Source of the DNA: Gammaproteobacteria bacterium | GTDB taxonomy: Bacteria; Pseudomonadota; Gammaproteobacteria; SZUA-140 | Direction: 5' to 3' | Assembly (NCBI GenBank): GCA_015488555.1 | Contig: WFNO01000021.1 | Location: forward strand, 1-51,387 | DNA length: 51,387 nucleotides | Part shown: positions 11,657 to 40,521 of the stretch, one piece after another | Layout: each line of letters begins with the position of its first letter | Numbering within the stretch: position 1 is the stretch's first letter | Program-made: the position numbers and the translations under genes | The notes under the pieces: generated by a model | Databases searched by the model: none | The model's input: only the letters and a program-made list of their open reading frames with translations | Told to the model about the DNA's origin: nothing

Positions 11657-12129
11657 GCATCACGCTGGAGGAAGCCAGACTCTTTTCCGTTTCTGAAATG
11701 ACGGGGCTGTCCGCACAGGACCTGATGCAGCTGCAGAAAGAAGCCGCCGAGTCTTTGCGACAGGCCAAGGATCTCAAGGACTGGGTCGACGGGGCCATCG
11801 CTCTGAAGTACGAAGCCCAGGCCAAGGCGCTGCGTGCCCGGCTGGGCAAGGACACCGGAACCGTCCACTTCGAGGATGATGGTGTTCGTGTCACGGCCGA
11901 TCTGCCCAAGAAACCGGTCTGGGATCAGCAGCGGTTGGCCGAGATCGCCGGACGTATCGCTACCAGCGGTGATAACCCGTCCGAATTTCTGGATATCACC
12001 TACAAGGTCGCCGAGCGCAAGTACAGCGCCTGGCCGGAAAATCTGCGCCAGGTGTTCGCGCCTGCCCGCACCCTCAAGACCGGCAAGCCCACCTTCAAGT
12101 TGACCAAGGCTGAGGGAGGTGCGGCATGA
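11653..12129 (+). CDS. Phage early protein preceding Sak4-like ATPase
   Basis: A 158-residue helical protein with a charged first half (LQKEAAESLRQAKDLKDWV) and a second half containing KKPVWDQQRLAEIAGRI and KVAERKYSAWPENLRQVF. I recognise the type as one commonly placed before phage Sak4-like ATPase genes, without a known function. Coupled by ATGA to the genes on both sides (11653-11656 and 12126-12129). A role with the recombinase is suggested only by position. Confidence 0.7.
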   Translation: MSITLEEARLFSVSEMTGLSAQDLMQLQKEAAESLRQAKDLKDWVDGAIALKYEAQAKALRARLGKDTGTVHFEDDGVRVTADLPKKPVWDQQRLAEIAGRIATSGDNPSEFLDITYKVAERKYSAWPENLRQVFAPARTLKTGKPTFKLTKAEGGAA

Positions 12130-13106
12130 CAAATTTGTCTGGAACAAATTTGGACCGCTCTGCGGGCCGCGTAGCGGTGAGCCCCATGGACGGGGCTCGC
12201 AAAGGACTTCCCATCATTAGCGCCGATCAGCGGATGGCCGAGAAACGTGGCATCAAGGGCTGCATCTTCGGCAAATCCGGCATCGGCAAGACCAGCCTTC
12301 TGTGGACTCTGGAACCGGAGAGCACCCTGTTCTTCGATCTGGAGGCCGGTGACCTCGCCATTGAGGGTTGGTCCGGCGACAGCATCCGGCCCAAGACCTG
12401 GCAGGAGTGCCGCGACTTCGCGGTGTTTATCGGCGGTCCCAATCCGGCGTTGCGTGAGGACCAGCCCTACAGCCAGGCCCACTTCGATGCCGTGTGCGAG
12501 CGCTTCGGTGATCCCGCAGTGCTGGAGAAGTACGAGACGGTTTTCATCGACTCGATCACGGTGGCGGGCCGTCTCTGCTTCCAGTGGTGCAAGGGCCAGC
12601 CGCAGGCATTCAGTGAGCGCAGCGGCAAACCGGATATGCGTGGAGCCTACGGCCTGCATGGCCAGGAGATGATCGCTTGGCTCACTCACCTGCAGCACAC
12701 CCGCAACAAAAACATCTGGTTTGTCGGGATCCTCGACGAGCGGATCGACGAGTTCAACCGCAAGGTGTTCGCGCCCCAGATCGAGGGCTCCAAGACCGGC
12801 CTGGAACTGCCTGGGATCGTCGATCAGGTGATCACCATGGCGGAGGTGAAGGACGATGACGGTAATGGCTACCGCGCCTTCATCAATCACACCCTGAATC
12901 CTTACGGCTATCCCGCCAAGGACCGCAGTGGTCGCCTCGAAATGATCGAGGAACCTCATCTTGGCCGCCTGATGGCGAAGATCCACACCCCCGTCAAACC
13001 GGCATCAGAACGCCTGACCTTTGGCGGTGCTGACCACACCACGGTGCAGCAACCGCCCAATAACGTTTCTACCGAATCCAACCCATCTGAAGAAGGAGTC
13101 CAATAA
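12126..13106 (+). CDS. Sak4-like RecA-fold ATPase (AAA_24 type)
   Basis: A 326-residue ATPase. Walker A is FGKSGIGKTS (residues 48-57) and Walker B is VFIDS near 140-144. This matches the AAA_24/Sak4 family of phage single-strand annealing recombinases, which work with a phage SSB. The following gene encodes an SSB-like protein, which supports this. The first 25 codons coincide with a four-hairpin array (12131-12200) and read MTNLSGTNLDRSAG, unrelated to the family; in-frame ATGs at 12186 and 12234 are alternative starts. The stop overlaps the next start (TAATG). Confidence 0.85.
   Translation: MTNLSGTNLDRSAGRVAVSPMDGARKGLPIISADQRMAEKRGIKGCIFGKSGIGKTSLLWTLEPESTLFFDLEAGDLAIEGWSGDSIRPKTWQECRDFAVFIGGPNPALREDQPYSQAHFDAVCERFGDPAVLEKYETVFIDSITVAGRLCFQWCKGQPQAFSERSGKPDMRGAYGLHGQEMIAWLTHLQHTRNKNIWFVGILDERIDEFNRKVFAPQIEGSKTGLELPGIVDQVITMAEVKDDDGNGYRAFINHTLNPYGYPAKDRSGRLEMIEEPHLGRLMAKIHTPVKPASERLTFGGADHTTVQQPPNNVSTESNPSEEGVQ
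12131..12200. repeat. Hairpin array A at start of Sak4-like gene
   Basis: Four hairpins in a row: AAATTTGT-CTGGA-ACAAATTT (12131-12151), CCGC-TCT-GCGG (12155-12165), CCGC-GTA-GCGG (12167-12177) and GAGCCCC-ATGGAC-GGGGCTC (12179-12198). Order and loops parallel the array at 29491, with different stems. Confidence 0.8.
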
Positions 13107-13708: not shown

Positions 13709-15433
13709 ATGATATTAAGACCCCGCCAGAAAGTGTTCGTCGAGCGAGCTATCCGCGCGCTCGATGAGCACGGTAACACACTCGGTGTTGCCCCGACCGG
13801 CGCAGGCAAGACCATCATGCTCTCCGGTGTTGCCGGAGAGTGGTTGGATGATACCGACGCCAAGGCCTGCGTGCTGGCCCACCGGGACGAACTGACGAGC
13901 CAGAACGAGGCTAAGTTCCGCAAGGTGAATCCCGGCATCGAGACGTCCATCTTCGATGCCCGGGAGAAGTCCTGGTCCGGCCAGGCCACTTTTGCCATGG
14001 TCCAGACCCTCTCGCGAGAAGCCAATCTCAAGCGCATGCCCAAACTGGACCTGCTGGTGGTCGATGAGGCGCACCACGTTGCCGCGCCCAGTTACCGGCG
14101 CATCATCGATCACGCCCGGGAGCGCAATCCGGATCTGGCCGTCTTTGGCGTGACCGCCACGCCCAATCGGGGCGACCGCAAGGGACTGCGGCCGGTGTTC
14201 AGCAACGTGGCCGACCAGATCACCCTGGGCGAGTTGATCCAGTCCGGACACCTGGTACCGCCCCGTACCTTTGTCATTGATGTGGGTACCCAGGGCGCGT
14301 TGTCCAATGTGAAGCGCACCGCCGACGATTTTGATATGTCGGCGGTGGACGCCATCATGAACAAGGCCCCCATCACGGATGCAGTCATCAAGCAATGGAA
14401 GGAAAAGGCCGGTGACCGCAAGACGGTGGTGTTCTGCTCCACCATCAGCCATGCCCGCAATGTCGAGGAGGCGTTCACAACAGCCAACGTTCCCGCCGTT
14501 CTTGCCCACGGCGAACTGTCCAGCAGCGAGCGCAAGGCGGCCCTTGCCCGGTTCGAGCAAGGCGATGCCCAGGTGGTGGTCAATGTCGCGGTCCTCACCG
14601 AGGGCTGGGACCACCCGCCGACCGACTGCGTCATCCTGCTGCGGCCCAGCTCCTTCAAGTCCACCCTGATCCAGATGGTCGGCCGTGGGCTGCGCACCGT
14701 CGACCCCAACGAGTATCCCGGCGTCACCAAGACCGACTGTATCGTGCTCGATTTCGGTACCAGCACGCTGCTGCACGGCTCGCTGGAGCAGGACGTCAAT
14801 CTGGATGGGCGGGATTTTACCGACACCGCGCCTCAGAAGGAGTGCCCCGAGTGCGGCGCGCAGGTCCCCGCCGCGTCCCTGGAGTGTCCGCTGTGTGGTC
14901 ACCGGTGGGAGCGAACCGATTCGGATGAGCAGGTCGAACTGACCGATTTCGTCATGTCGGAGCTGGACCTGCTCAAACGGTCTTCGTTCCGCTGGTGCGA
15001 TCTGTTTGGCGACGACGGCGCGTTGATGGCCACAGGCTTCGATGCCTGGGCCGGTGTCTTTTTCCTGAATGGGCGCTGGTTCGGCATCGGCGGCGGCAAG
15101 AATCTGACAACGAGTTTGCTGGCACTCGGTGAACGCACCGTATGCCTTGCCGCAGCCGATGACTGGCTCAATGAGCACGAGTCGGAGGACACCGCGCTCA
15201 AGTCCCGCCGCTGGTTGAATCAAGCCGCGACCCAGCAACAGTTGCGGTACCTGCCGCCTGCCTACCGGCAGGACTTCGGGCTGACCCGTTATCAGGCCTC
15301 CTGCCTGCTGGCCTTCCAGTTCAACAAGCGGGACATCCAGTCCCGGGTGTTCGGCGCGGCGGATAACGACGCACATGGAAGTGCTAGTGCCGCGGGAGGC
15401 AGGAGGCCGAGAGCGGCCAAGGAGGCGGCGTGA
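13709..15433 (+). CDS. SF2 DEAD/DEAH helicase with zinc ribbon
   Basis: A 574-residue helicase. Motif I APTGAGKT (28-35), motif II DEAH (119-122), motif III GVTATPNR, and C-terminal helicase motifs VVNVAVLTEGWDHP and QMVGRGLRT are all present. A four-cysteine zinc ribbon (CPECG...CPLCG) follows near residues 378-395, then a roughly 180-residue unknown C-terminus. It would unwind DNA during phage replication or recombination. GGAGG precedes the ATG. The stop overlaps the next gene's GTG. Confidence 0.93.
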   Translation: MILRPRQKVFVERAIRALDEHGNTLGVAPTGAGKTIMLSGVAGEWLDDTDAKACVLAHRDELTSQNEAKFRKVNPGIETSIFDAREKSWSGQATFAMVQTLSREANLKRMPKLDLLVVDEAHHVAAPSYRRIIDHARERNPDLAVFGVTATPNRGDRKGLRPVFSNVADQITLGELIQSGHLVPPRTFVIDVGTQGALSNVKRTADDFDMSAVDAIMNKAPITDAVIKQWKEKAGDRKTVVFCSTISHARNVEEAFTTANVPAVLAHGELSSSERKAALARFEQGDAQVVVNVAVLTEGWDHPPTDCVILLRPSSFKSTLIQMVGRGLRTVDPNEYPGVTKTDCIVLDFGTSTLLHGSLEQDVNLDGRDFTDTAPQKECPECGAQVPAASLECPLCGHRWERTDSDEQVELTDFVMSELDLLKRSSFRWCDLFGDDGALMATGFDAWAGVFFLNGRWFGIGGGKNLTTSLLALGERTVCLAAADDWLNEHESEDTALKSRRWLNQAATQQQLRYLPPAYRQDFGLTRYQASCLLAFQFNKRDIQSRVFGAADNDAHGSASAAGGRRPRAAKEAA

Positions 15434-16556: not shown

Positions 16557-18730
16557 TGGCGGACAACATCGTCTGGCTCGACTTCAACGATGCGCCCGAC
16601 CAGGAGATCTCAGCCACCGAACCCGGGTTCGATGCAAAGGAGCTGAAGGCGCGTTTGCTGGACCGGCTGCCCGAGGCGCTTGCCTGGCTGTTTCCGAACG
16701 GCAAGACCCGCGGCAGGCAGTTTGTTATCGGTGACCTGCAGGGCAATCCCGGCAAGAGTCTGGTGGTGGAACTCGAGGGACCCAAAGCGGGCATGTGGAT
16801 CGACTTCGCCACCGGCGAGAGCGGCGACATATTCGATCTCTGGGCAGCGAGCCATGGTCTGGACAGCCACCGGCAGTTTCCGGATCTGGTGCGCAAGATC
16901 GCCCGCTGGCTGGGTGATGCGCCGCCTGCCACAGTTACTTCGCCGTCACGTAAACCGCCGGTCGACGATCTCGGCCCCTGGTCGGCCAAGTGGGACTACC
17001 ACGACGGCGAGGGGCGGCTCATCGCCTGCGTTTACCGCTACGACACCGAAGACGGCAAGGAATACCGGCCGTGGGATGTGCGCGAACGCAAGATGCGCGC
17101 GCCCAATCCGAGGCCGCTCTACAACCAACCCCGCCTCCTGCTGGCCGATGAGGTTGTACTGGTTGAGGGCGAGAAAGCCGCAGATGCGCTTATCAGCCAG
17201 GGTATTGCGGCCACCACCGCCATGAACGGTGCCAACGCGCCGGTGGACAAGACCGACTGGTCGCCACTCAAGGACAAGCGCGTGCTGATCTGGCCGGACA
17301 AGGATGAGGCCGGGATCCAGTATGCCGAGCGTGCGCGGGATGTGTTACTCCGTTCAGGCGTGGCATCGGTGGCCATCCTCGAGCCGCCCGCCGACAAGCC
17401 GGAGAAATGGGATGCGGCCGATGCGGTCGCGGAGAAGATGGATGTCACTGACTTCCTTCAATCCGCCCCGAGATCCGAGGCGCATAGCGCGCCAGGGATT
17501 CCGGTGTTCAGCCTCGGGCAGATGCTGGCGGACACATCCCCCATGCCTGATGACCTGATCGAACCCCGGGTGCTGACACCCGGTGGCATGATCGTCTTCG
17601 GCGGCGCGCCCAAAGTGGGCAAGAGCGACTTCCTGCTCACAATGCTCACCCACATGGCAGCGGGCGAGCCGTTTCTGGAACTCAATCCGCCAAGGCCGCT
17701 GCGCATCTTTTATCTGCAGGCAGAGGTGCAATACCACTATCTACGCGAACGCTTTCAGGCGATGAACCTGCCGAAGGCGGTTGTGCGCAAGGCGGCGGGC
17801 AACCTCAAGGTCACACCACAGCTCAAGCTGGTGTTCAACGACGATGGCATGGCCGTTGTGCTGACTGCCATGCGGAAGGCATTCACCGAGCCGCCATTGG
17901 ATGTTCTGGTCATCGACCCGATCCGGAACGTCTTCGATGGCGGGCCGGAGGGAGCAAGCGAGAACGACAACAACGCCATGCTGTTCTTCCTGCGCGAGCG
18001 GGTGGAGCAGCTGCGCGATGCAGTCAATCCCGAGGCAGGCATCATTCTGGCCCACCATACCAAGAAGATCAGCAAGAAACAGGTTGAGGAAGATCCGTTC
18101 CTTGCCTTGTCCGGTGCGGGCAGCCTGCGCGGCTACTACACCACCGGCATGCTGCTCTACCGGCCCGACGAGAGCCGCACGGATCGAATGCTGGTGTTCG
18201 AGCTGCGCAATGGTCCGGGCATTGCCACCAAGCGTGTCGACAAGTCCGGCGGGCGATGGGTGGAACTCGACCCGCATAGTGAGCGCCTAGTCAACCAGGA
18301 CCATGGCGAGCGCCTGGATGCCGAACGTCGCCGCAAACGCGATGTGATCCTGCAATTGATCTTCGACGAGGCCTCTGAGTGCAGGGTCTACACCGCCAAC
18401 CAGTTCGCAGAAAGCTTCGAGGGCAAGGCCGGGCTTGGGGCCAACCGCACCATCAATGAGCGCCTGGCCGTGCTGGCCACCAAGGGCTACATCAAGTTCT
18501 TCCGTAATCCCGAGGACTATGGACTGCCGCCGCTGACCCGCAGCAAGTTCGGCTACCTCTGCGTCGAGCAGATGGCCCTGCCGGGCAAAGAGCAGATCGA
18601 TACCGACACCGGTGAGATCACCCGCTCATGTCTAGTCGTCAAACCCACCCATTACAAATGTCCGCAGACCGGCGCGGTGCTGCCCGTCGAAAACCCGGAC
18701 GTCTGGATCTATCACGAGGAGGATCAATAG
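16556..18730 (+). CDS. Primase-helicase (Toprim plus RepA-type ATPase)
   Basis: A 724-residue replication protein. The Toprim domain has VEGEKAAD (203-210) and WPDKDEAG (246-253). The C-terminal RecA-fold helicase has Walker A GGAPKVGKS (349-357), Walker B LVIDPIRN (451-458) and the sensor-like ILAHHTKK near 500. The first 100 residues resemble the primase N-terminal region. It probably primes and unwinds at the phage origin. I chose the ATG at 16556 because it overlaps the upstream stop (TGATG) with GGAGG before it. The candidate origin repeats begin 46 bases after its stop. Confidence 0.93.
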   Translation: MADNIVWLDFNDAPDQEISATEPGFDAKELKARLLDRLPEALAWLFPNGKTRGRQFVIGDLQGNPGKSLVVELEGPKAGMWIDFATGESGDIFDLWAASHGLDSHRQFPDLVRKIARWLGDAPPATVTSPSRKPPVDDLGPWSAKWDYHDGEGRLIACVYRYDTEDGKEYRPWDVRERKMRAPNPRPLYNQPRLLLADEVVLVEGEKAADALISQGIAATTAMNGANAPVDKTDWSPLKDKRVLIWPDKDEAGIQYAERARDVLLRSGVASVAILEPPADKPEKWDAADAVAEKMDVTDFLQSAPRSEAHSAPGIPVFSLGQMLADTSPMPDDLIEPRVLTPGGMIVFGGAPKVGKSDFLLTMLTHMAAGEPFLELNPPRPLRIFYLQAEVQYHYLRERFQAMNLPKAVVRKAAGNLKVTPQLKLVFNDDGMAVVLTAMRKAFTEPPLDVLVIDPIRNVFDGGPEGASENDNNAMLFFLRERVEQLRDAVNPEAGIILAHHTKKISKKQVEEDPFLALSGAGSLRGYYTTGMLLYRPDESRTDRMLVFELRNGPGIATKRVDKSGGRWVELDPHSERLVNQDHGERLDAERRRKRDVILQLIFDEASECRVYTANQFAESFEGKAGLGANRTINERLAVLATKGYIKFFRNPEDYGLPPLTRSKFGYLCVEQMALPGKEQIDTDTGEITRSCLVVKPTHYKCPQTGAVLPVENPDVWIYHEEDQ

Positions 18731-29160: not shown

Positions 29161-29490
29161 ATGAAAGTCGTTGCAAATATCACCCTGCGCGTCGGCACGC
29201 CCGAGAAGATGGAGTATGTCCCGCCGGGCGTACCAGTGAATCTCCCGGCAGATGAGGCGCGAGAACTGATAGAAAGGGAGCTTGCAGAAAAGGCATCTCC
29301 CAAGGACGAGGCGGATGACGATCTGATCGAGGCGATTGTCGACGCCATTGGTGATCTGTCGCCGGACGCTTACGGCAAGGACGGCAAGCCAACGGTCAGG
29401 GCCATTGAGGACCTGCTTGGCAGAAGCATTACCGCAGCTGAGCGCGACCAGGCCTGGGGCGAGTATCAAAAACTGGCGGCAGAGGTATGA
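29161..29490 (+). CDS. Head-associated protein (FI-position)
   Basis: A 109-residue protein with a strand-rich first 40 residues (VANITLRVGTPEKMEYVPPG, VNLPADEARELIE) like a DUF7210-type domain, and a helical C-terminus (KPTVRAIEDLLGRSITAAERDQAW). It occupies the position of lambda FI. A DNA-packaging role is inferred from gene order. The N-terminal half resembles the 93-residue protein at 36541. Confidence 0.65.
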   Translation: MKVVANITLRVGTPEKMEYVPPGVPVNLPADEARELIERELAEKASPKDEADDDLIEAIVDAIGDLSPDAYGKDGKPTVRAIEDLLGRSITAAERDQAWGEYQKLAAEV

Positions 29491-29879
29491 CCGTTTTGTC
29501 TGGAACAAAACGGGTCGCATCAGGTGCGCCCGAAGGGGACGCGCCATGGATGGCGCGTAACAATGTCCGGACACGCTTCGCCCGGGCTCTGGACAGCCAG
29601 TTCCTGCGTTTGGGCACAGACGCCGAATACCGCCCGCAGGCAGGCCAGGCTCAGACCATCCGGGTTATCGCCCGGCGGCCCGAGGAACTCTATGAATTGG
29701 GCGAAGGCCGCATCCATGCGGAGAACCCGGTGCTGGAATTTCGCGTGCACGAAGTGCCGGAGCCACGCACCGGAGACCAGATCTGTGTTTTAAGCCGGTG
29801 CTACCGCATCGAGAGCGAGCCCCGGCTCGACCAGCATCATCTGGTCTGGTCGGCGGAATCCTTGCCTATCCAGGAGTAA
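29487..29879 (+). CDS. Head-tail connector protein (FII-position)
   Basis: A 130-residue protein placed where lambda FII lies. After residue 22 it reads MARNNVRTRFARALDSQFLR, followed by strand segments (IRVIARRPEELYELGE, VLEFRVHEVPEPRTGDQICV) like connector proteins. The first 21 codons (MTVLSGTKRVASGAPEGDAP) coincide with hairpin array B, and an in-frame ATG at 29550 may be the ancestral start. The ATG at 29487 overlaps the upstream stop by ATGA, so both starts remain possible. Confidence 0.75.
   Translation: MTVLSGTKRVASGAPEGDAPWMARNNVRTRFARALDSQFLRLGTDAEYRPQAGQAQTIRVIARRPEELYELGEGRIHAENPVLEFRVHEVPEPRTGDQICVLSRCYRIESEPRLDQHHLVWSAESLPIQE
29491..29558. repeat. Hairpin array B at start of connector gene
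   Basis: Four hairpins: CCGTTTTGT-CTGGA-ACAAAACGG (29491-29513), CGCA-TCAGG-TGCG (29516-29528), CCC-GAA-GGG (29529-29537), and ACGCGCCA-TGGA-TGGCGCGT (29539-29558). Loops one and four are the same as in array A; the stems are different but fully paired. Confidence 0.8.
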
Positions 29880-37085: not shown

Positions 37086-37195
37086 GTATCGCGCTGGCCT
37101 CCCATACCGGTTGGCCACTCTCTGAACTGCTCGAACTCGACGGCCATGAACTGGTGGCCTGGCTCAAGGCGTGCCCAAAGCCTGGAATCAAGTAA
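37055..37195 (+). CDS. E' extension made by -1 frameshift
   Basis: This 46-residue -1-frame segment (VLSPLEARRACIALASHTGW...) is open to 37195 and resembles the GpE' domain (GWPLSELLELDGHELVAWLK). It has no start of its own at the right place. After the shift the fusion (36819-37055 then 37055-37192) would be 125 residues, the E+E' form that nucleates the tape measure. The tape measure ATG follows the stop directly. Confidence 0.8.
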   Translation, partial: VLSPLEARRACIALASHTGWPLSELLELDGHELVAWLKACPKPGIK

Positions 37196-39871: not shown

Positions 39872-40312
39872 ATGAGTGAAACCATGATGGCCTTGGGCAG
39901 CTACCGGTTCTCGTTGGGCAGCGCCGCCTATCAGGAACTCCGCCGAAGTAACGCCTATCGCTGGCAGGCACAGGAGCGGCTGCAGCGGTTGCCTGCCCAA
40001 CAGTTTCTAGGACCCGGCAGCGAAACGCTGGCTCTCAAGGGCGTGATCTATCCCCATTACCGGGGCGGCTTCAAACAGATCGATGCCATGCGTGCGCAGG
40101 CGGGCAAAGGCGAACTGCTACTGCTGGTGGATGGTCTTGGCTTTATCTGGGGCCAGTGGGTGGTCCTTCAGGTCGATGAAACACAGTCGGCGCTGCTTAC
40201 CAACGGTCAGCCGAGAAAACTGGAGTTCCAGCTTCGCCTGGCCCGATACGGAGACGATGCCATGGATGGCGGAGGTAGAACAATGTCTGGAACGATTGTC
40301 GAGGATAGCTAA
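39872..40312 (+). CDS. Tail protein U
   Basis: A 146-residue P2 gpU-like protein. The start (MSETMMALGSYRFSLGSAAY) is the family N-terminus; SNAYRWQAQERLQ and LVDGLGFIWGQWVVLQVDE are conserved. It works near the tape measure during tail completion. The last codons (MDGGGRTMSGTIVEDS) coincide with hairpin array C. The stop overlaps gene X (TAATG). Confidence 0.92.
   Translation: MSETMMALGSYRFSLGSAAYQELRRSNAYRWQAQERLQRLPAQQFLGPGSETLALKGVIYPHYRGGFKQIDAMRAQAGKGELLLLVDGLGFIWGQWVVLQVDETQSALLTNGQPRKLEFQLRLARYGDDAMDGGGRTMSGTIVEDS
40259..40299. repeat. Hairpin array C at end of gene U
   Basis: GCCA-TGGA-TGGC (40259-40270) and then CAAT(GT)-CTGGA-(AC)GATTG (40281-40298), with one bulged G. The two loops are those of arrays A and B but the order is reversed and the stems are short. 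Confidence 0.65.
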
Positions 40313-40521
40313 TGGCCCAATACCGTACCCGTGATGGCGAGATGCTGGATGCCATCTGTAAGGCCTGGTACGGCGAATCATCCCGCTATACCGAAGCCGT
40401 GCTGGAAGCCAATCCTGACCTGGCCGATCTGGGACCAATGCTGCCTGCCGGTGTCGTAATCGATCTGCCGGAGTTTCCAGAGCTGTCGGTCAGGACAGGA
40501 TTGATTCGTCTGTGGGACTGA
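40312..40521 (+). CDS. Tail protein X
   Basis: A 69-residue P2 gpX-like LysM protein: YRTRDGEMLDAICKAWYGES, AVLEANPDLADLGPMLPAGV and IDLPEF. It probably binds peptidoglycan or the tail hub. The ATG overlaps the U stop (TAATG). Confidence 0.93.
   Translation: MAQYRTRDGEMLDAICKAWYGESSRYTEAVLEANPDLADLGPMLPAGVVIDLPEFPELSVRTGLIRLWD

Follow-up and report, generated by a model that had tools for sequence, protein, structure and literature searches.

REPs are described as single stem-loops of 20-40 bp that carry GTAG or CGTC tags, and some of them lie within genes (Di Nocera et al. 2013, PMC3733652). Sites of the global regulator CsrA are described as short hairpins that expose ANGGA (PMC7366521), and RUACARGGAUGU has been given as their consensus (PMC7937890). 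The window analysed here, a stretch of 51,387 nucleotides from a gammaproteobacterium (contig WFNO01000021.1), holds phage genes that begin with arrays of small GGA-loop hairpins. We find that these arrays are copies of a palindromic element of the REP/RPE/MITE kind that is widespread and mobile, inserts in frame and has several hairpins per unit. Its mobility, combined with constraint on its structure, is a conclusion that we hold with high confidence; what reads the structure is a matter of graded likelihood and is weighed below.

Hairpin arrays inserted in phage genes

Two type I copies lie on the forward strand of the window. Copy 1 (12126..12199) is an in-frame segment of about 24 codons that gives the ATG of a gene for a Sak4-like ssDNA annealing protein (12126..13106, +; phrog_124, Pfam AAA_24), and copy 2 (29487..29559) gives the ATG and an N-terminal extension of a phage head-tail attachment gene (29487..29879, +; PF05354), in which the PF05354 match begins at residue 30, past the element-coded part. 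Both arrays start with ATGAC, followed by hairpin 1, a central hairpin region and hairpin 4. Hairpin 1 has a 9 bp stem and the loop CTGGA in both copies (12130..12152 with the loop at 12139-12143, and 29491..29513 with the loop at 29500-29504). Hairpin 4 has a 7 bp stem with C-G closing and the loop ATGGAC in copy 1 (12179..12198) or ATGGAT in copy 2 (29539..29558), and the outer GGA loops are spaced 47 nt and 46 nt apart, respectively. The stems of the two arrays are nearly entirely different in sequence and fully paired in each. An earlier sequence-only reading of the window had described these arrays: both were found where it had placed them, its loop sequences agree with the fold and the model, and its observation that unlike stems stay paired holds for both. 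Its count of four hairpins per array is right overall but not in every fold, as the centre of array 1 (12153..12178, the position of family hairpins 2 and 3) is predicted to prefer one longer imperfect hairpin over two, and hairpin 1 of array 2, present in a 90-nt fold, is displaced by alternative pairing in longer contexts. The 106-nt regions around the arrays fold with z-scores of -4.1 and -3.7, and for either region none of 200 dinucleotide shuffles folds as well.

Copy 1 is an insertion. Of the 80 related loci that we retained from viral contigs, 79 could be used, L197 being excluded as cut off at the start. In every one of the 79 an ATG or GTG stands in frame at most 3 codons from a conserved LPII/FPII, and no array is present. 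In L131 and L132, the GGAGGTGCGGCATGA context is the same as at copy 1, and the sequence then runs on without an array. A sister phage contig (G055), about 92% identical to the window over the two longest aligned stretches, has no copy 1, its DNA before the Sak4-like gene being different, whereas its copy 2 is identical letter for letter. For copy 2 we found no empty site, and the sole relative found in viral contigs is this sister phage; other phage homologues of the gene are less than 60% identical.

The comparison of the two phages also revealed the second type. A diverged type II copy that the sequence-only reading had overlooked (15368..15418, +; 39.5 bits, E 2.7e-7 with a model outside whose training set it stands) lies at the 3' end of the phage helicase gene 13709-15433, within a 51-bp in-frame insertion in the helicase C-terminus that is missing from the sister phage. 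Together with a hairpin insertion of G055 opposite window position 37176, this insert defines type II. The sister phage further carries an antisense type II copy opposite window position 16943, inside a long gene (L211, 11066-11117, 48 bits), which the window phage lacks, and an insert opposite 24996 at the start of the portal gene with ATG on both sides, which we placed in the family by eye, on account of its resemblance to L560 and L561, and not by the type I model. Presence and absence at one site in close relatives are observed for copy 1, for type II and for the other inserts. Partial arrays had also been suggested at 40259 and 20006, but neither is matched by either covariance model and the region 40240-40320 folds no better than its shuffles (z +1.3).

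The window shows no general enrichment of hairpins with GGA loops. On the coding strand, hairpins with an ANGGAN hexaloop and a stem of at least 5 bp number three in the window and three in the sister phage; the other strands have none, and permuted loops give 0-1. A 5-bp hairpin with such a loop at window position 14181, in the helicase gene and also in the sister phage, lies outside any element and is either a chance hairpin or a lone site. At the left end of the window a tRNA-Ser gene (60-150) is a plausible attachment site of this prophage.

Architecture, covariation and distribution

The type I element is about 72 nt long with four hairpins. Type II measures 53 nt and forms three helices in the order ANGGAN hairpin (HPa), GCCGC, GAA, second ANGGAN hairpin (HPb), GAGA and GCGGC. 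Type I hairpin 4 and both type II hairpins share C-ANGGAN-G loops on free stems, AGGAN replacing ANGGAN in some copies of hairpin 4 and HPb, while the loop consensus of hairpin 1 is CNGGA. In the 28 distinct type I sequences of alignment A5, the hairpin 4 loop keeps C in 27, A in 27, GGA in 28 and G in 27, and both N positions take all four bases; in 56 HPb sequences the corresponding counts are C 55, A 55, GG 56, A 55 and G 56. CCCGAAGGG occurs in only 15 of the 28 A5 sequences, and some CCC..GGG in 26. Over all tallied copies, GGA is found in the loop of 78 of 82 hairpins 4, 55 of 56 HPb, 53 of 56 HPa and 80 of 82 hairpins 1, although 54 of the 82 sequences of the latter tally were gathered by a pattern in which CGGGA was fixed. 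The longer ANGGA is present in 55/82 (hairpin 4), 51/56 (HPb), 44/56 (HPa) and 1/82 (hairpin 1).

The stems covary strongly. Pairing holds in 96.6% of the 443 stem cells of A5 against 68.4% after shuffling, and 122 cells show double changes where shuffling gives 34.0 (none of 500 shuffles reaches that number); pairing falls to 25-42% when partners are slid (at most 44% across the type I sets). An alignment of 54 distinct type I sequences from named genomes (A6) is 95.5% paired against 65.9%, with 232 double changes against 66.3, so that double changes in type I come to 3.5 times the shuffled number; the 56 distinct type II sequences of A7 are 98.8% paired against 79.3%, with 129 double changes against 32.2. 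A5 derives from the 20 best-scoring loci of the class-wide search and includes copy 1. A6 derives from 80 of at least 117 stretches gathered by a pattern that fixed CGGGA in hairpin 1, GGAC and GCCCGAAGGG, and is uninformative at those positions. A7 derives from 44 chosen loci with the training copies included. A5 and A6 have one sequence in common and give 81 distinct sequences overall. All three alignments follow the models and consist of good matches, which biases them to pairing, but the models knew only two and four sequences. G-U pairs outnumber the mirror product A-C on the GGA strand by 7:0 in A5, 15:10 in A6 (p 0.42 alone) and 15:5 in A7, pooled 37:15 (p 0.003), an excess that points to folding of the GGA strand, in matches picked by a model that itself prefers GU.

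The type I model was built from the two window arrays alone and the type II model from four sequences, with genome matches counted at E <= 1e-3. Of 369 genomes sampled from the host's class, 83 have type I (in 70 of 272 genera) and 87 have type II; 131 genomes have either type and 39 have both. Copies are dispersed palindromes, from one to at least 15 per positive genome, which is the high-copy dispersed pattern of REPs; several genomes have at least 15 type II copies, and some copies follow one another in tandem with a spacing of exactly 53 nt. The genome of the window itself holds four type I matches, and two of these lie on other contigs. Of 359 genomes sampled across the phylum, 31 have type I, 13 of these outside the class and mostly weak, and the outside copies L560 and L561 again sit at an RBS-ATG. 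A scan of named genomes yielded at least 117 stretches, and the type I model, run on 80 of them, gave 54 matches in 40 loci; it had no match at E <= 1e-3 in the remaining 40, Streptomyces included. Named hosts of type I comprise Methylocaldum, Ectothiorhodospira, Thioalkalivibrio, Thiohalomonas, Methyloversatilis, Alishewanella, Arsukibacterium, Shewanella, Microbulbifer, Marinimicrobium, Methylophaga, Alloalcanivorax and others. In viral contigs the pattern GTCTGGAAC..CATGGAYG occurs in at least 120 stretches, and among those listed both stems are present only in the window and the sister phage. Matches of a type II pattern in viral contigs were mostly chance, and we retained L261 and L351, which have identical sequence, and L288 from the sister phage. 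A Blast search of one unit against plasmids and phages gave no match. Rfam 15 matches nothing in the window except a tRNA and none of the elements in 12 more loci, chiefly type II, and none of the titles and abstracts that searches of the open-licence literature brought up describes either type. The search with a covariance model thus turned two arrays into many further copies with strong covariation. The mobile mini-element that the sequence-only reading had offered as one explanation is well supported by the 83 of 369 genomes, by the relatives of the Sak4-like gene without the segment, and by stems that covary round fixed loops.

The copies occupy a variety of positions: intergenic, in tandem, antisense and, by reading of open reading frames in other genomes, at gene starts and in frame within open frames. 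At gene starts the element's ATG follows a ribosome binding site, a situation that recurs in different genes, several of them phage-like by eye, and the start-codon copies inspected are in the ATG frame. Six divergent pairs stand head-to-head 6-10 nt apart (L429, L434, L444, L449 and the mixed type I/II pairs L459 and L497), and other divergent pairs overlap or lie 28 nt apart. No clean target duplication was seen at the sites inspected; ATG or ATGA on both sides was noticed in two cases.

Individual loci illustrate this range. Ectothiorhodospira marina and E. shaposhnikovii share a type I insertion in an HsdR-like frame (L477 and L481, in frame, by eye). One 20-kb region (L557, G155:C1:1262000-1281900) has ten type I matches, several at gene boundaries, and the look of a defence island with PglZ-like and helicase-like frames by eye; another locus (L566, G193:C183) has five type I copies in about 2 kb, one of them in a group II intron RT-like frame, again by eye. 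Five type II copies lie just behind terminator-like T runs (L353, L354, L394, L410 and L570, in G358, G053 and G144; by eye), as if terminators might be an insertion target for type II. Three others are, by eye, nested in loops of other palindromic repeats of the types CGTCATTCC..GGAATCC and GTAG (L405, L409, L578).

A possible CsrA/RsmA site and competing explanations

The reading that we favour, with a probability of roughly 45%, is that the element may be a travelling CsrA/RsmA site rather than a purely transpositional structure. On this reading the arrays are copies of the type I element that have inserted in frame at start codons of phage genes and supply the ATG. Once transcribed, the outer hairpins would display GGA loops 46-47 nt apart, a spacing within the reach of a CsrA dimer, and a CsrA/RsmA dimer would bridge them. 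Start-codon copies would put their gene under CsrA control, the first GGA (+16 to +18) lying on the border of the initiating ribosome, and copies elsewhere might act as CsrA decoys or be neutral passengers. The constant C-ANGGAN-G on free stems would suit CsrA/RsmA: ANGGA or AGGA in a hairpin loop is seen in hairpin 4, HPa and HPb, and CANGGANG is what we take to be the exact form of the CsrA/RsmA motif. The protein-binding site that the sequence-only reading had proposed, next to a mobile mini-element and an RNA switch, draws its support from this loop consensus and is a candidate. The ATG of array 1 has a predicted unpaired probability of 0.97, compared with 0.28 to 1.0 in six empty relatives, and that of array 2 has 0.59, so that predicted folds of the two arrays and the six relatives reveal no clear effect of the element on accessibility of the translation start. 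Since the ATG of array 1 is unpaired in the predicted fold, translation need not be blocked when no protein is bound.

The distribution of csrA gives a mixed picture. The gene is present in 17 of 18 named type I hosts, a Methyloversatilis included, and was not found in Desulfobulbus Tol-SR; a nineteenth named genome (L446) has csrA and no type I match. Among the 369 class genomes, type I occurs in 72 of 312 with csrA vs 11 of 57 without (Fisher p 0.61) and type II in 78 of 312 vs 9 of 57 (p 0.17), several but not all of the csrA-negative genomes with elements being incomplete assemblies. In the assembly of the window itself (G000, 95% complete) csrA was not found, and the one genome of the same genus that was searched (G001) has three. 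In Methylophaga thiooxydans G399 (L508) CsrA is matched thirteen times; twelve of these matches share one E-value and several share a contig coordinate, which reflects either a multicopy element or an assembly artefact. Several observations speak against a CsrA site. Presence of the elements does not follow that of csrA over the 369 genomes, and the gene was not found in the window's own assembly. Many copies are antisense, head-to-head, in open frames or behind terminators, where the benefit of a sense RNA is unclear. Hairpin 1 loops are CNGGA and not ANGGA, and the longer fold of array 2 lacks this hairpin. GU pairs are few, and type II accompanies RAYT transposases.

The strongest competitor is pure mobile DNA, only slightly less probable: hairpins and GGA loops would be read as ssDNA by a putative mobilising enzyme, for example of RAYT/HUH type, with no role for RNA, and start-codon copies would survive as in frame and harmless. 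The habits of the elements are those of REPs, namely head-to-head pairs, nesting in palindromes, positions behind terminators, antisense copies and in-frame intragenic copies. A RAYT gene (E <= 1e-3) is present in 80 of 87 type II genomes vs 172 of the 282 genomes without type II (odds ratio 7.3, p 7e-9), although repeat-rich genomes may simply have both, and the association with type I is weak (65/83 vs 187/286, odds ratio 1.9, p 0.03). Of 20 RAYT neighbourhoods two contain type II copies, one of these neighbourhoods having been picked because a copy had already been seen adjacent, whereas none contains type I; the 40 most similar pairs do not include the two RAYTs that adjoin type II copies, and one of the adjacent copies is apparently inside another, GTAG-type repeat. 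The copies inspected by eye have no unpaired GTAG or CGTC/TGTC/CCTC tag at the unit ends, which counts against an origin of this kind; CGTC does occur inside hairpin 1, in stem and loop, of many type I copies. The excess of GU over AC on the GGA strand also argues against it, and one loop consensus in two differently built elements is not obviously explained by one transposase.

Covariation might instead result from mutation, by template switching in imperfect palindromes that perfects the stems so that both arms change jointly. Such palindrome-correcting replication errors are another possible source of double changes, and the tally of many double changes and few GU intermediates (about 2% of stem cells, low for an RNA family) fits this idea. 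The GGA loops, which lie outside the arms, are nevertheless kept over the 70 genera with type I and in nearly every tallied copy, and GU exceeds AC; we regard a purely mutational origin as improbable. The sequence-only reading had taken compensatory stems as proof of selection. This calls for caution, as double changes could have this other source, but palindrome correction would leave the loops unprotected.

It is very improbable that selection acts on the N-terminal peptide (MTNxSGTN..). Copies 1 and 2 share the peptide LSGT and the start-codon copies inspected keep the ATG frame, but past the central part the frames of the two copies diverge (loop 4 reads PMDGA in copy 1 and PWMAR in copy 2), many copies are intergenic, antisense or tandem, and it is the loops and not the codons that are conserved. 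Chance palindromes, which would agree with the lack of general enrichment of GGA-loop hairpins in the window, are ruled out for practical purposes by the fold z-scores and by model matches in many genomes with covariation. Translational bypassing, in which GGA serves in take-off and landing, was considered and rejected, as both genes are read through in frame.

The travelling CsrA/RsmA site can be extended, more tentatively, to both types. Two differently built miniature elements with CANGGANG hairpins, in gammaproteobacterial chromosomes and phages, would then form a self-spreading family of CsrA/RsmA sites that drop CsrA operators on genes, each bringing a start or stop codon of its own, and titrate CsrA. 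If this were true, transposition would rewrite the target set of a global regulator, and an element read by CsrA would explain how post-transcriptional regulons acquire targets and by what route phages connect to a global regulator of the host. Whatever reads it, a mobile element with fixed loops and free stems occurs in 131 of 369 class genomes and has no RNA family match, and it can equip genes with start codons, tails and leaders that are new to them.

Relation to known systems

Bacterial MITEs such as NEMIS and RUP, described as small non-autonomous dispersed elements (PMC10969869, PMC3733652), resemble both types in these respects. Unlike them, types I and II have no terminal inverted repeats of 15-30 bp and no clear target duplication at the sites inspected. 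CsrB and RsmX-Y-Z sRNAs and CsrA leader sites are described with short ANGGA hairpins (PMC7366521), and type II copies in tandem have a sponge-like appearance. In contrast to these RNAs, the elements have no Rfam match, are dispersed in many copies and are inserted in coding regions, and the CsrA sites here are putative.

RPEs share in-frame insertion into unrelated protein-coding genes, as described for them (PMC10969869, PMC3733652) and as found here for the window copies and, by reading of open reading frames, in other genomes. However, RPEs are described from Rickettsia as about 150 bp long, each with an ORF that codes for a conserved peptide, whereas types I and II conserve loops and pairing. 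REPs, REPINs and BIMEs come close as short dispersed palindromes that are often head-to-head and in some cases intragenic or the source of stop codons, and HUH (RAYT) enzymes are suspected to act on REPs (PMC3733652). The elements reported here differ in that type I consists of four hairpins (72 nt) and type II of three helices (53 nt), with fixed GGA loops on free stems.
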